Of a stretch of 64,000 nt of DNA, positions 45,522 through 54,948 are shown in pieces. The DNA is taken from positions 1-64,000 of the forward strand of contig CANLHK010000010.1 of assembly GCA_947490615.1 (NCBI GenBank). Reading direction: 5' to 3'. The notes beneath the pieces are model-generated. The model saw only the letters and a list, made by a program, of their open reading frames with translations. It was not told the DNA's origin and did no database searches. A program made the position numbers and the translations under genes. This DNA is from Planctomycetaceae bacterium (GTDB lineage: Bacteria; Planctomycetota; Phycisphaerae; Phycisphaerales; SM1A02). The stretch's first letter is position 1, and each line of letters opens with the position of its first letter.

Positions 45522-46901
45522 ATGCTCCCCCTGGTGCCCCGATCCATCGGTCCGCTGGTCCTGCGCTCCGCGGCGACCTTTCCCGCGGTTGGAATCGTGG
45601 GGCCGCGGCAGAGCGGCAAGTCGTCGCTGGTACGGAGCCTGTTTCCTGGGCATAAGTTGGCCGTGATGGAATCGCCCGATGTGCTGCGCATGGCACTGCA
45701 GGATCCGCGCGGCTTTCTCGATTCGTTCGAAGCTGGTGACGGGGCCGTGCTCGACGAAATCCAGCGCGCGCCCGAGATCATGTCGTACCTGCTTGAGTAC
45801 ATCGACCGCGATTTGCGCGCTGGGCGTCGCATGGGGCGGTGGATCCTGACAGGATCGGAGAGCCTTCTGCTCTCGCAGCGCATCACGCAGTCGCTGGCGG
45901 GGCGCATCGCGATGCACGAGGTGCTGCCAATGGACGCGCTCGAACTTGCGGGGTTTCCCGTGCGCCGCGGTGACCCGCGGCACTCGCTTGCGCGCGCCGT
46001 CGTTCAGGGCGGATATCCCGCGCTCAAGGCGGAGCGCCCCGACCGCTCGACCTGGTTCGACGGGTATGTCACCACTTACATCGAGCGCGATGTGCGGAAC
46101 ATGCTGCGCGTGGGGGATCTCTCGAGCTTCCAGCGGTTTCTCGCGCTCTGCGCCGGACGCACTGGGCAGCTGATGAATCTCGCGCAACTCGGCGCCGACA
46201 CAGGAATCGCGCAGGGCACCGCGCGCGCCTGGATGTCGGTGCTCGAGGCCACCTACATCGTCAAGCTCATTCCCGGTTGGTACGGCAACATCAACAAGCG
46301 GCTGGTGAAAGCGCCAAAGCTGCACTTCGTCGACACGGGGCTCGCGTGCGCGCTGCTCGGGATCACCGACGAGCGGATGCTTGAGACGCACCCACTGCGC
46401 GGCGCGCTCGTCGAGTCGTGGGTGGCCGGCGAACTGCTCAAGGCCCAGGCGGTGCGAGGGCTGCGTTCGCGACTTTTCCACTGGCGCGACCAGAACGCTG
46501 CGGAGGCGGACCTTGTCGTCGATCACGGCGGAAAGCTCACGGTCATCGAGGTCAAGAGCGCCATGACCGTGCACCCGGACTGGGCGCGCGCGCTTGAGCG
46601 CATGACAAACGCGCTGCCCGCGGGCACACCCGTCGAGCGCGTCATCGTGCACGGCGGCGGCGACGACATGCCGCCGCTGAAGGGCACGACGCTTGTGCCG
46701 TGGTCGCGCGTGACGGAGTTCGCGCGCGGCGTGTTCGGGGGCAAGGCTGATGCAACTGCGCCGAAGTCTCCCGCCAAGCGGACCGTCACCAAGAAGGTGC
46801 GGAAAGCCCAGAAGAAAAGCGCCCCGCCGAAGTCGACGGGGCGCGGGATCATGCGAAAGACCGCAAAGGGCGCAACGCAGGCCAGCCGCGCGAAGCGGTG
46901 A
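45522..46901 (+). CDS. AAA ATPase with DUF4143 domain and basic C-terminal tail
   Basis: The protein is 459 aa. The N-terminal P-loop domain has Walker A VGPRQSGKSSLV (about 26-37), Walker B VLDEIQRAPE (about 75) and the sensor ILTGSESLLLSQ (about 108). The C-terminal DUF4143 half has YVTTYIERDVRN, the HFVDTGLACALLGI segment and a nuclease-like ending AEADLVVDHGGKLTVIEVKS. Proteins of this type are scattered among bacteria and their role is unclear. After about residue 405 comes a Lys/Arg/Ala/Pro-rich tail (43 or more residues) that the family usually lacks; it may bind nucleic acid. Its stop codon abuts the stop of the convergent DUF642 gene with no spacer. It looks like a mobile single-gene cassette between phhA and a secreted protein. 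Confidence 0.9.
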   Translation: MLPLVPRSIGPLVLRSAATFPAVGIVGPRQSGKSSLVRSLFPGHKLAVMESPDVLRMALQDPRGFLDSFEAGDGAVLDEIQRAPEIMSYLLEYIDRDLRAGRRMGRWILTGSESLLLSQRITQSLAGRIAMHEVLPMDALELAGFPVRRGDPRHSLARAVVQGGYPALKAERPDRSTWFDGYVTTYIERDVRNMLRVGDLSSFQRFLALCAGRTGQLMNLAQLGADTGIAQGTARAWMSVLEATYIVKLIPGWYGNINKRLVKAPKLHFVDTGLACALLGITDERMLETHPLRGALVESWVAGELLKAQAVRGLRSRLFHWRDQNAAEADLVVDHGGKLTVIEVKSAMTVHPDWARALERMTNALPAGTPVERVIVHGGGDDMPPLKGTTLVPWSRVTEFARGVFGGKADATAPKSPAKRTVTKKVRKAQKKSAPPKSTGRGIMRKTAKGATQASRAKR

Positions 46902-51088: not shown

Positions 51089-52993
51089 TCACACCACCCG
51101 ATCCTCCGACGCGATGTTGAACGCGGGGGCGAGGTTCACTTGGACGAGTTTGGCCGCCTCAGGGTCGACGAAGTCCGAGTGGCAAGAGGCCTTCTCGCCA
51201 TCGGTGGCGCCGACGGCCTTCTTGGTCTTGGACGCGAGCTTGTGAATCTCGTCGGGCGAGAGCACGCCGCGCTTGGCGAGAATCTCCTGTTGTTCCGCGG
51301 TGAGCGCTGCGCTCTTGACGGGCTTGCCTCGCTGGTACTCCTCGTCCTTGCCTGACGCAAACTCCTGGATCTCCTTCGAGATCCGCACGCTGCACCAGTC
51401 GTGTCCGCACATCGCGCAGAAGTCGGTGTCGACATCGAGGTCTTCGTCGTGGTAGGCGCGCGCAGTGTCGGGATCGAACGAAAGTTCGAAGTGCTTCTCC
51501 CAGTTCAGGGCGGCGCGCGCCTTGGTGAGCTCGTCGTCTCGATCGCGCGAACCAGGAATGCCCAGCGCAACATCCGCAGCGTGGGCAGCGATCTTGTAGG
51601 CGATGCAACCCTGCTTCACATCGTCCTTCTTTGGCAGACCGAGATGCTCCTTCGGGGTGACATAGCAGAGCATGCTCGCACCGTGGTAGCCCGCGGCCGT
51701 CGCACCAATGCAGCTCGTGATGTGGTCGTAACCAGGAAAGATGTCGGTGACGAGCGGACCAAGCACATAGAACGGCGCGCCGTGGCAGAGCGTGCGCTGC
51801 AACTTCATGTTGAACTCGATCTGGTCAAAGGGCACATGGCCGGGGCCTTCGACCATGACTTGCACGCCCATGCGCCACGCGCGCTCGGTGAGCTCCGCGA
51901 TCGTCGAGAGCTCTGCGAGTTGCGCGCGATCGGTCGCGTCGGCGAGCCCACCAGGACGCAGGCCGTCACCGATCGAGAAGGTCACATCGTGTCGGCGCAT
52001 GACCTCGCAGATTTTTTCCCAGCCCGTGTACATGAGGTTCTGCTTGTTGTGGACCAGCATCCACTTGGCCAACAGCGAACCGCCGCGCGAGACGATGCCG
52101 ATCAAACGCTTCTTGATGAACGGAAGGTGCTCCTTGAGGACGCCCGCGTGGATCGTGAAGTAGTCGACACCCTGCCGCGCTTGATGCTCAAGCGTCGCGA
52201 GCACCATCTCTTCGTTGAGGTCTTCGATCTTGCGACCGATGATCATCGAGTAGATCGGCACCGTGCCGATCGGCACTGTCGAGTGGCGACAAAGCGCCGA
52301 GCGACACTCGTCGAGATTGCCGCCCGTCGAGAGATCCATGACCGTGTCGGCGCCCCACTTCTCCGCAAAACGAAGCTTCTCGACCTCTTCATCAGTGCCC
52401 GAACTCACGGGCGACGCGCCCATGTTCGCATTGATCTTGGTCTTGGACGCGCGACCGATGGCCATGGGATCGAGCTTGAACCCGAGATGCGCGCGATTGG
52501 CGGGAATGACCATGCGCCCCGCAGCGATCTCGTCGCGAACCTCGACCGCCGAGAGGTGCCCCTCGCGCTCGGCCACGCGCAGCATCTCAGGCGTGATGAT
52601 CCCAAGGCGTGCATATTCGAGTTGCGTGATCGGCGTGAAGGACTTTGGGTAGAGCACGCGACGCCACGAGCCACGCGCACTGACGAACTCGACGCTGGTG
52701 AGTGCATCCCCGCAGCAGTTCGTGCAAGTCGTGTGCGAAGGTTCGACGATCTCCACGGTGGACCAACCACTCGGCAGGAAGTCCCACGCGGTCTTGTCGC
52801 TTGGCGCGGGCATGCCTGGCGTGTCCGGCGACGAGAAGGCGAGTGCGCCGCCGATGTCCGCGCGCCGTGCGAAGGAACCAGGAGTTGTTCCTTGTGCAGA
52901 AGACGATGGGTTGTGCGCACCGTGCAACGGAAGTTGGACTTCGTCGTCGTGGCGTGCGGAAGTTCTCTCGATGGTGGTGGTCGGCGTGATCAT
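51089..52993 (-). CDS. thiC: Phosphomethylpyrimidine synthase (thiamine biosynthesis)
   Basis: ThiC is a radical-SAM enzyme that converts aminoimidazole ribotide to hydroxymethylpyrimidine phosphate. The protein is 634 aa. Recognised segments are [76 protein letters not shown] and the 4Fe-4S motif CAMCGHDWC (about 524-532). The N-terminal 60 residues are variable and probably disordered. A TPP riboswitch lies upstream in the leader. The next minus-strand gene starts 59 bases after its stop. Other thi genes are not in the window. Confidence 0.97.
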
Positions 52994-53047
52994 CGTGGCT
53001 CTCTCAACAGTCCGTCGAGAAGTGAGCCGCGCGCACCAACGCGCATG

Positions 53048-53136
53048 AACCCGCTTCCCTACGCCGGTGCAAACCGGATCAGGTTCGACGGGTGCTTCTC
53101 AGCTCTTCGCAGTTGCGAAGGGCGCCCCGAGCGTTC
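53048..53136 (-). promoter_or_regulatory. TPP riboswitch (THI element) upstream of thiC
   Basis: On the minus strand the sequence reads, in order, CTCGGGGCGCC, GCTGAGAAG, ACCCGTCGAACCTGATCCGG, TTTGCACCGGCGTAGGGAAG. These are the conserved parts of the thiamine pyrophosphate aptamer, including CTGAGA and ACCTGAT/GTAGGGAAG. The aptamer ends about 55 bases before the thiC start. No stem followed by a T run lies in that interval, so control is more likely by translation than by termination. Confidence 0.94.
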
Positions 53137-53155
53137 AGAGAGTGTAGTGGCGACG

Positions 53156-53923
53156 CTACGCCCGCGGCGTCGCATGAAAACGGGCGAGAACCGATGCGGC
53201 AGCTACCGCAGGAAAACGCTCTCCACGGACGCACTCGTCGACGAGAAGTTGCGGATGCGTCGACGCAAGCGCTGCAGCCACAGGACGATTGGGCGCGAAG
53301 CGATCGACCCGCGCGATTGCGAACTCCTCGAGCGCGTAGAGCCGACGCAGGCAGTCGGCGTGCATCGACGCAAGCAGCCGCGACTCATTTCCACCGTGCG
53401 CGCGCAACTCTTGCTCGCGCTCAGAAACAGGAATGACCCGAGTGCAGAAGGCGAACCGCGACTCGATCCACTCGGCGAGTTCAGCGATCTCTTGCGCGGC
53501 ACAGGTCTTCGAATCGCGCAGGCCGCGCGCAATCGCGTCCTCTTCGAACTCCATCGGAAGCGCCACTGCTGCGACCGCCATCGCGCGATCGCTCTCACTC
53601 TTGCCCGCTTCGTCGCTTCCAGCCACGAGCGTCACGCGCAGCGGCGCCTCGCCGCCATCAGGAATGTCGTGATCGGATGGAAGGGCGAGTCGATGCCGAC
53701 GATCAAACTCGTCGGCGTCGAACTCCTCCTCGGCTTCCACGAGAAGTGACGATGCGCAGAGCAGGACGCGCGTGCGTCGATCGTCACAGAACTCCCACTG
53801 CGCCATCGCATCAGGAGGTGACACGGGATGGAAGTCATGACGCACAAGCAGTTCGCGCAACGGACCGAAGCGCGTCGAAGCGCGTCGATAGATCCGAATG
53901 GCAGGCGAACGCTCGGTGCCCAT
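53156..53923 (-). CDS. rnhC: Ribonuclease HIII-like protein
   Basis: The protein (255 aa) resembles RNase HIII/HII, which cut RNA in RNA-DNA hybrids. An N-terminal domain of about 95 residues is followed by the catalytic fold: VAGSDEAGKSESDRAMAVAA (Asp104, Glu105), LRDSKTCAAQEI (Asp137), SRLLASMHADCLRRL (Asp190) and LVDECVRGERFPAVAAASVL (Asp229, Glu230). These match the DE-x-G-K start, the DSK box and the AAASxLAR helix of the family. The usual G-K-G-D-x-x-G-P stretch is altered to G-K-S-E-S-D-R-A. The N-terminal domain length favours HIII. Activity is probable but should be treated with care. Its ATG is 17 bases from that of the divergent dehydratase gene. Confidence 0.78.
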   Translation of the reverse strand: MGTERSPAIRIYRRASTRFGPLRELLVRHDFHPVSPPDAMAQWEFCDDRRTRVLLCASSLLVEAEEEFDADEFDRRHRLALPSDHDIPDGGEAPLRVTLVAGSDEAGKSESDRAMAVAAVALPMEFEEDAIARGLRDSKTCAAQEIAELAEWIESRFAFCTRVIPVSEREQELRAHGGNESRLLASMHADCLRRLYALEEFAIARVDRFAPNRPVAAALASTHPQLLVDECVRGERFPAVAAASVLARFHATPRA

Positions 53924-53928
53924 GCGGG

Positions 53929-53935
53929 TAGGCTA
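53929..53935. promoter_or_regulatory. Overlapping opposed -10 elements of a divergent leaderless pair
   Basis: On the plus strand TAGGCT (53929-53934) lies 6 bases before the ATG at 53941. On the minus strand TAGCCT (complement of 53930-53935) lies 6 bases before the ATG at 53923. Only 17 bases separate the start codons, too few for a leader with a ribosome-binding site on either side. Confidence 0.6.
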
Positions 53936-53940
53936 ACCAC

Positions 53941-54948
53941 ATGAACACCGCTGCGAGTTCGCCGATTGCTGACCGATCAAGCACCGTGCCCTATGCCGCA
54001 AGCCTTGACTCGATCCGCGCAGCGGCGCGGCGCATCGACCCGTTCATTCGCCGAACGCCGGTCCTTACGAGCACAACGCTCAATGAATTGAGCGGCCGCT
54101 CGCTCTGGTTCAAGTGTGAGATCTTCCAGAAGACGGGCTCCTTCAAGTTCCGCGGCGCGACCAATGCGGTGCGCATGCTCGACGACGCGACGGCCGCGCG
54201 CGGAGTCGTGACCCACTCGTCAGGAAATCACGCGCAGGCGTTGGCGTTGGCTGCACGCATGCGCGGCATTCCCGCGCATGTCGTCATGCCCTCCAATTCG
54301 GCTGAGATCAAGAAGACGGCGGTGCGCGGCTATGGCGCGTTCATCATTGAGTGTGAGCCAACACTTGAAGCGCGCGAGTCGACCGCCGCAGCCGTCCTTG
54401 CGCGCACGGGAGGCACGATGATCCCTCCGTTCAACCATCCGAATGTCATCGCGGGCCAAGGAACGCTCGCGCTTGAACTTCTCGACGAGTGCCCGCATCT
54501 GGATGCGATCGTGGTCCCTCTTGGTGGCGGCGGACTCATCTCAGGTGTCGCCATCGCAGCCAAGGCGATCAAGCCGTCGATTCGCATCATCGGCGCCGAG
54601 CCCGCTCTTGCTGGTGACGCGGCTGCTTCCAAGCGACTCGGCTCCATCCAACCCGCGATGGCGCCCGTCACCATCGCTGATGGACTGCGCACCTCGCTCG
54701 GGCCGCTGACCTTTCCCGTCGTGCGCGATCTTGTTGATGAGATCGTGCTCGTCGAGGAGGCGGAGATCGCGGCGCACATGCGTCTCGTGTGGGAACGCAT
54801 GAAGATCACCATCGAGACCAGTGCGGCCGTGGGCGTCGCGGTCGCCTGTACTGCGTGGGCCAAAACGCGCAAGGACCACGCGGATGTGCGAGACATCGGC
54901 GTGGTCCTGTGCGGCGGCAATGTCGACCTCGCTGCGCTGCCCTTCTAA
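53941..54948 (+). CDS. Threonine/serine dehydratase-like PLP enzyme
   Basis: This fold-type II PLP enzyme (335 aa) matches single-domain threonine ammonia-lyase or serine racemase. The PLP lysine is in QKTGSFKFRGA (about 62), the Asn loop is SSGNHAQALALAAR (about 90), and the phosphate-binding glycine loop is PLGGGGLISG (about 184). The C-terminal VVLCGGNVDL is also typical. No ACT regulatory domain is present, so it is not the feedback-controlled biosynthetic IlvA; which of the two activities dominates cannot be decided here. It is divergent from the RNase HIII-like gene with overlapping -10 boxes. Confidence 0.9.
   Translation: MNTAASSPIADRSSTVPYAASLDSIRAAARRIDPFIRRTPVLTSTTLNELSGRSLWFKCEIFQKTGSFKFRGATNAVRMLDDATAARGVVTHSSGNHAQALALAARMRGIPAHVVMPSNSAEIKKTAVRGYGAFIIECEPTLEARESTAAAVLARTGGTMIPPFNHPNVIAGQGTLALELLDECPHLDAIVVPLGGGGLISGVAIAAKAIKPSIRIIGAEPALAGDAAASKRLGSIQPAMAPVTIADGLRTSLGPLTFPVVRDLVDEIVLVEEAEIAAHMRLVWERMKITIETSAAVGVAVACTAWAKTRKDHADVRDIGVVLCGGNVDLAALPF

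Follow-up and report, generated by a model that had tools for sequence, protein, structure and literature searches.

A putative leaderless bidirectional promoter shared by an RNase HIII-like gene and a dehydratase gene is conserved within a planctomycete genus

A divergent pair of genes, encoding an RNase HIII-like protein and a PLP-dependent ammonia-lyase/dehydratase, very probably shares one bidirectional promoter of the 18-bp class, which would drive two leaderless mRNAs. We base this reading on the geometry of the sequence, its conservation and a leaderless signal in the same genome. The window is the whole analysed stretch of 64,000 nucleotides. In it, the start codons of the two genes (minus-strand start at 53923, with CAT at 53921-53923; plus-strand start at 53941) are separated by a gap of 17 bases (53924-53940, GCGGGTAGGCTAACCAC). 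The gap holds two opposed hexamers, which have five bases in common (53930-53934) and each end six bases ahead of their own ATG (Table 1). Neither GGAG nor AGGA was read in the 17-base gap on either strand. The first-pass annotation of this DNA had described the gap, the overlapping hexamers and the two spacings, and all are exact by coordinates. The sequence evidence also supports its view of the hexamers as two opposed, overlapping -10 elements. They probably form a near-symmetrical, seven-letter promoter core for two genes facing apart.

Table 1. Features of the RNase HIII-like/dehydratase locus and of the 23-bp sites in the same genome
Feature	Position	Strand	Remark
-10 element TAGGCT, dehydratase gene	53929..53934	+	6 bases before ATG; hexamer identical in 16/16 genomes
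-10 element TAGCCT, RNase HIII-like gene	53930..53935	-	6 bases before ATG/GTG in 16/16 genomes
Putative bidirectional core GTAGGCTA, invariant	53928..53935	.	8/8 columns identical, 16 genomes
Predicted transcription start, A of dehydratase ATG	53941	+	Inferred from spacing
Predicted transcription start, A of RNase HIII-like ATG	53923	-	Inferred from spacing
RNase HIII-like gene, 255 aa, predicted leaderless	53156..53923	-	Pfam RNase_HII 3.4e-10
PLP-dependent ammonia-lyase/dehydratase gene, 335 aa, predicted leaderless	53941..54948	+	Pfam PALP 9.5e-77
23-bp sites L182-L185	Own genome C5:170853, C5:213318, C6:11093, C24:12926		Pattern search

The RNase-like gene had an ortholog in all 16 genomes of the genus that were examined, and the proteins were 52-65% identical to the window protein in local alignments. 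The orthologous gaps were read without anchoring on the motif and were then compared column by column. The results showed that GTAGGCTA was identical in 16/16 genomes, amid 15 distinct 23-mers. The minus start codon kept its position in every genome (ATG in 7, GTG in 9), and the plus ATG kept its position in 15/16. The first-pass annotation had named a lack of conservation of the hexamers as grounds for giving up its reading. Both hexamers are conserved in all 16 genomes, and the spacing to the start is kept in 16/16 on the RNase side and in 15/16 on the dehydratase side. Two genes end at contig edges, the RNase gene of G109 and the dehydratase gene of G112, with the core and both starts visible. 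The public-contig loci L002-L006 were not counted separately, as they look like copies of genomes already counted (for example, by having the same core). In the exceptional genome, G110 (locus L017), the core and the minus start are intact, the dehydratase ATG is absent at the expected place, and the next ATG lies 35 bases past the core. The dehydratase mRNA of G110 may be leadered. In the family sample, the RNase-like gene was found in 4/101 genomes and 1/45 genera, all four genomes belonging to the window genus, so the pair is restricted to the genus at that sensitivity.

The length of the dehydratase N-terminus varies among the relatives, with 8, 11 or 13 codons up to the conserved Tyr-Ala in 13 genomes. 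In 12 of these 13, this stretch contains no other in-frame start. Because the N-terminus varies in length and the distance from ATG to hexamer is fixed, the ATG follows the hexamer and not the protein. The N-terminus of the window dehydratase is longer, and its codon 16, directly before the conserved Pro-Tyr-Ala, is an in-frame GTG. This GTG is an alternative start, so the window case is less clear than its relatives. In G101, an in-frame ATG likewise lies directly before the conserved Pro-Tyr-Ala.

The names that the first-pass annotation gave to the two genes are supported, by a fold match to RNase H3 and by membership of the PALP family. The minus gene product scored 38.9 bits against TIGR00716 (rnhC), under the curated cut-off of 161.2, and its name is therefore limited to RNase HIII-like. 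The best PDB match of its AlphaFold model (mean pLDDT 92.1) in Foldseek was RNase H3 4py5 (E 7.5e-12, 242 columns). The global superposition on 4py5 was poor (TM-score 0.55, rmsd 10.7), and the two proteins may therefore differ in how their domains are arranged. For RNase HII 1eke, the alignment spanned 167 columns with an rmsd of 2.6. Judged by the predicted model, the protein is of the RNase H2/H3-type fold with an N-terminal domain. The motifs GSDE, RDSK and VDRF were invariant or nearly so across 14 aligned orthologs. For the dehydratase, the best NCBIfam model was beta-hydroxyaspartate dehydratase (389 bits, cut-off 550), followed by threo-3-hydroxyaspartate ammonia-lyase (357.5, cut-off 452), and all 25 substrate-specific models among the matches listed scored below their own cut-offs. 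Just downstream of the RNase HIII-like gene, a TPP riboswitch (53039-53139, minus strand, 67 bits) precedes an ORF at 51089-52993, whose sequence, as we judge it, resembles thiC. This riboswitch, away from the gap, was the only Rfam match in the whole window at gathering thresholds, and no tRNA was found in the window. A hidden RNA was considered and rejected on these grounds.

TANNNT ahead of start codons was counted in a 464-kb sample, consisting of 400 kb of the window's own genome (3.26 Mb) and the window. The counted starts were ATG or GTG opening at least 100 codons, and they are start codons and not curated genes. TANNNT was found at spacing 6 in 52 cases and at spacing 7 in 22; the remaining 28 spacings between 0 and 29 averaged 6.1 (range 2-15). 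We take this peak at a fixed spacing as the genome's leaderless signal. A control for base composition at spacing 6 did not discriminate: other triples of A and T at the same three positions gave counts of 28 to 107, compared with 52 for T-A-T. Base counts in the 464-kb sample gave no strong signal in the -35 region of the sampled sites. TANNNT ahead of the start has been described as a leaderless signal in other high-GC bacteria (PMC3160421, PMC12340547), and a comparative study of one planctomycete species indicated leaderless or S1-type initiation (PMC5397173).

Two unrelated, one-sided leaderless genes were followed through the genus as controls. Spacing 6 was seen in 10/16 and 10/12 genomes, and the rest had spacings of 7 to 9; the in-frame start nearest spacing 6 was picked, which favours these controls, and one of the two genes was located in 12/16 genomes only. 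A one-sided gene at 45522, matched in 11/16 genomes, served poorly as a further control because its matches were mostly paralogues. The spacing-6 peak and the fixed spacing across the genus indicate that both mRNAs of the RNase/dehydratase pair probably begin at their own start codons and are leaderless, as had been proposed from the sequence at first sight. The accompanying argument that a leader cannot fit is correct only if transcription starts within the gap. Two further divergent start pairs of leaderless type were seen in the same genome (L027, 14051/14088; L035, 863/893). They have separate -10 elements, and their starts are 37 and 30 bp apart.

In bidirectional promoters, 18 bp was reported as the commonest distance between the two transcription starts, with 10 and 23 bp also common (PMC12825309), and reciprocal -7T/-11A and a T at -18 were given as traits (PMC10268837). 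Numbered from the predicted starts, the opposed -10 elements of the window share bases and have reciprocal -7T/-11A at 53930 and 53934. A T at -18, usual in the class and not obligatory, is present in both directions. The opposite ATG supplies this T, its A being the pairing partner: the plus-strand T at 53923 is the -18T of the plus promoter, and the opposite-strand partner of the A at 53941 is the -18T of the minus promoter. With starts at the A residues of the two ATGs, each start codon in the window would double as a promoter element of the other gene. In the 9/16 genomes with GTG as the minus start, the -18T is missing on the plus side.

We believe that RNA polymerase would bind TANNNTA in either orientation, presumably together with the housekeeping sigma factor, the -11A and -7T of one direction pairing with the -7T and -11A of the other. 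Both RNAs would begin at their start codons and would be translated without a leader. Single polymerases would use this promoter, common to the two genes, in one orientation at a time. At low output, the result would be parallel expression of both genes and not a switch. The arrangement resembles the 18-bp class of Warman, Grainger and colleagues in its overlapping symmetrical -10 elements, predicted starts 18 bp apart and reciprocal -7T/-11A. It departs from that class in having start codons at both predicted starts, in a core of TAGGCTA that is not TATAAT-like, and in being conserved between two protein genes; moreover, the published class rests on start-site mapping, whereas the window case rests on sequence only. 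Leaderless TANNNT genes likewise have TANNNT six bases before ATG or GTG, at many sites in the genome sample, but here one TANNNTA would serve two genes. In a word search, "divergent" and "bidirectional" were absent from the main texts of two papers on such genes (PMC12340547, PMC3160421).

The first-pass annotation had gone further and read the overlap as a built-in either/or switch, in which the polymerases compete for one site. One gene would then go down when the other goes up. We consider this unlikely. To our knowledge, an RNase H-like protein and a dehydratase have no functional opposition, which speaks against a switch between them. The geometry is in its favour to the extent that overlapping hexamers cannot hold two polymerases, and steric exclusion at the single site is likely; such exclusion is stated in PMC12825309, where one direction of E. 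coli promoters was also described as repressed once the other was substantially activated. However, according to the same paper, basal output was too weak for competition at 5/5 E. coli bidirectional promoters tested. Nothing in the present results points to an activation of either direction, and the switch is unsupported.

At the RNase/dehydratase pair, the inner triplet of the -10 element was of one type in 16/16 genomes when read from the RNase side and in 14/14 from the dehydratase side. The two one-sided leaderless promoters had 7 types in 16 genomes and 4 types in 12, with entropies of 2.42 and 1.78 bits. The DUF480 pair described below has a second two-sided promoter, whose inner triplet was alike in 12/15 on one side and 11/11 on the other. 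The constancy of the inner triplet at two-sided promoters appears as a trend over these four loci. An inner base that belongs to two opposed -10 elements at once has to suit both of them. Among the spacing-6 sites of the sample, C was the commonest last inner base (22/52) and G was the commonest base before TA (24/52); imposed both ways, these two preferences give GTAGNCTAC. An A directly after TANNNT was present at 2/52 spacing-6 sites, both from the RNase/dehydratase pair, as expected where a second, opposed -10 element needs this A.

The invariant inner bases could also be explained if GTAGGCTA(C) were bound in addition by a DNA-binding regulator, which we regard as improbable. GTAG-G-CTAC is a near palindrome, and the triplet is fixed in 16 genomes, unlike in the two one-sided promoters. 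However, a dimer operator would be expected to be longer than nine bases, the base after the core is C in 10/16 genomes only and A in the window, and a two-way -10 element by itself already favours the same letters, as the counts of C and G show.

A bidirectional promoter with two leaderless mRNAs is also preferred to ordinary promoters lying inside the opposite coding regions, in which case both mRNAs would be leadered and the gap merely compact. Coding sequence can contain promoters, but the fixed six-base spacings, the invariant core and the spacing-6 peak would be left unexplained, and we find this very improbable. The bare pattern is weak in numbers: CATN5TANNNTAN5ATG has 1 site in the 3.26-Mb genome and 0 in the reversed control, and when each start may be either ATG or GTG, there is still 1 site, against 4 in the reversed control. 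A chance arrangement, with which the last count would agree, is nevertheless rejected as having a negligible probability, because the pattern sits at both starts of two conserved genes and is conserved in 16/16 genomes of the genus.

Promoters of the 18-bp bidirectional class and leaderless TANNNT genes are already known separately. No report of a start-codon-to-start-codon unit that is conserved in a genus and recurrent in a family was found in our searches of the open-access literature. We call the RNase/dehydratase promoter a conserved, putatively leaderless variant of a known promoter kind. Bidirectional promoters have been regarded as arising from -10 symmetry and were found by start-site mapping. 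A broader proposal, on which we are evenly divided, is that a class of divergent pairs in the family is locked by such a start-codon-to-start-codon promoter. The starts would keep a distance of 18 or 23 bp because translation and transcription both begin at each start codon, which, where it is an ATG of the 18-bp class, also provides the -18T of the opposite gene. These promoters would then be conserved regulatory units, readable in bare genome sequence, and not by-products of -10 symmetry. Letter-for-letter conservation in 16 genomes and recurrence at several conserved pairs of the family point to selection for a shared promoter. As the genes appear leaderless, the geometry of the start sites can be read from the distance between start codons, and such promoters might be countable in uncultured bacteria without RNA data. 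The locus also lends itself to asking cleanly whether the start codon of one gene can serve the opposite gene as part of its promoter.

The family was searched for both distances, and the site totals given here (82, 51 and 160; controls 39, 43 and 42) are sums of table rows. The pattern CATN5TANNNTAN5ATG was found in 67/181 family genomes, at 82 sites, and the reversed control gave about half as many (39). From these, 45 sites were fetched, a set biased toward recurring sites. At least 60 open codons were present on both sides at 25 of them and not at the other 20, so the raw count is partly due to chance or to something else. Between homologous genes, the 18-bp layout recurred, among others, in three genera (G101 and G102, both from the window genus, G053 and G042) at a glycosyltransferase-like/aminotransferase-like pair. 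It recurred at an amidohydrolase/lipoprotein-like pair in two genera (g18 and g40), with inter-genus identities of 46-50% and 36-48%, and at an ABC-ATPase-like/hydrolase-like pair at six fetched loci of genus g19. The amidohydrolase was named by Pfam, and the other names were read from the sequences. One recurring 18-bp sequence around TACAGTA or TATTGTA, with 10 genomes listed in g35, g36 and g8 and counted within the 82 sites, disagrees with the gene-pair reading, as all six of its fetched sites (L111, L112, L113, L114, L121 and L123) lacked long open frames on at least one side.

A pattern with spacing 8, intended as a null control, gave 51 sites in 36/181 genomes (reversed control, 43). 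Two recurring sites in genus g18, with TANNNTA eight bases from both ATGs, account for 17 of these 51 and possibly belong to the 18-bp class with short leaders. In the 464-kb sample, the histogram of distances between divergent starts (at least 120 open codons) had no peak at 18, where 8 pairs were counted; the one ATG-ATG pair among them is the RNase/dehydratase pair. In the same histogram, the ATG-ATG count was 15 at 23, yet 17 at 61, and internal starts in overlapping frames dominate.

The 23-bp pattern CATN6ANNNTANNNTN6ATG was found in 96/181 family genomes, at 160 sites, compared with 42 in the reversed control. The 23-bp class is more frequent in the family than the 18-bp class, with chance matches included in the raw counts. 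The genome of the window has four such sites (Table 1), each flanked by divergent ORFs of 96 codons or more, and 0 in the control. By Pfam, the flanking ORFs of L182-L185 are PMT/Bestrophin-like, GNAT/Beta-lactamase, DUF480/none and Pterin_4a/tRNA-synt_1c. At the DUF480 pair, TANNNT was at spacing 6 before DUF480 in 15/15 orthologs found in a search of 16 genomes. Of the 13 genomes in which the partner gene could be located, 11 had the opposed TACACT, with a spacing of 6 in six genomes, 7 in four and 5 in one. Across the family, 34 of the 23-bp sites were fetched. Open frames of 80 codons or more were present on both sides at 23 of them and not at the remaining 11. In genus g43, a conserved 23-bp pair around ATCATAGACT was seen at nine fetched loci (L129, L132, L133, L135, L136, L137, L140, L142 and L143), and it presumably encodes peptidase-like and GcvT-like proteins.
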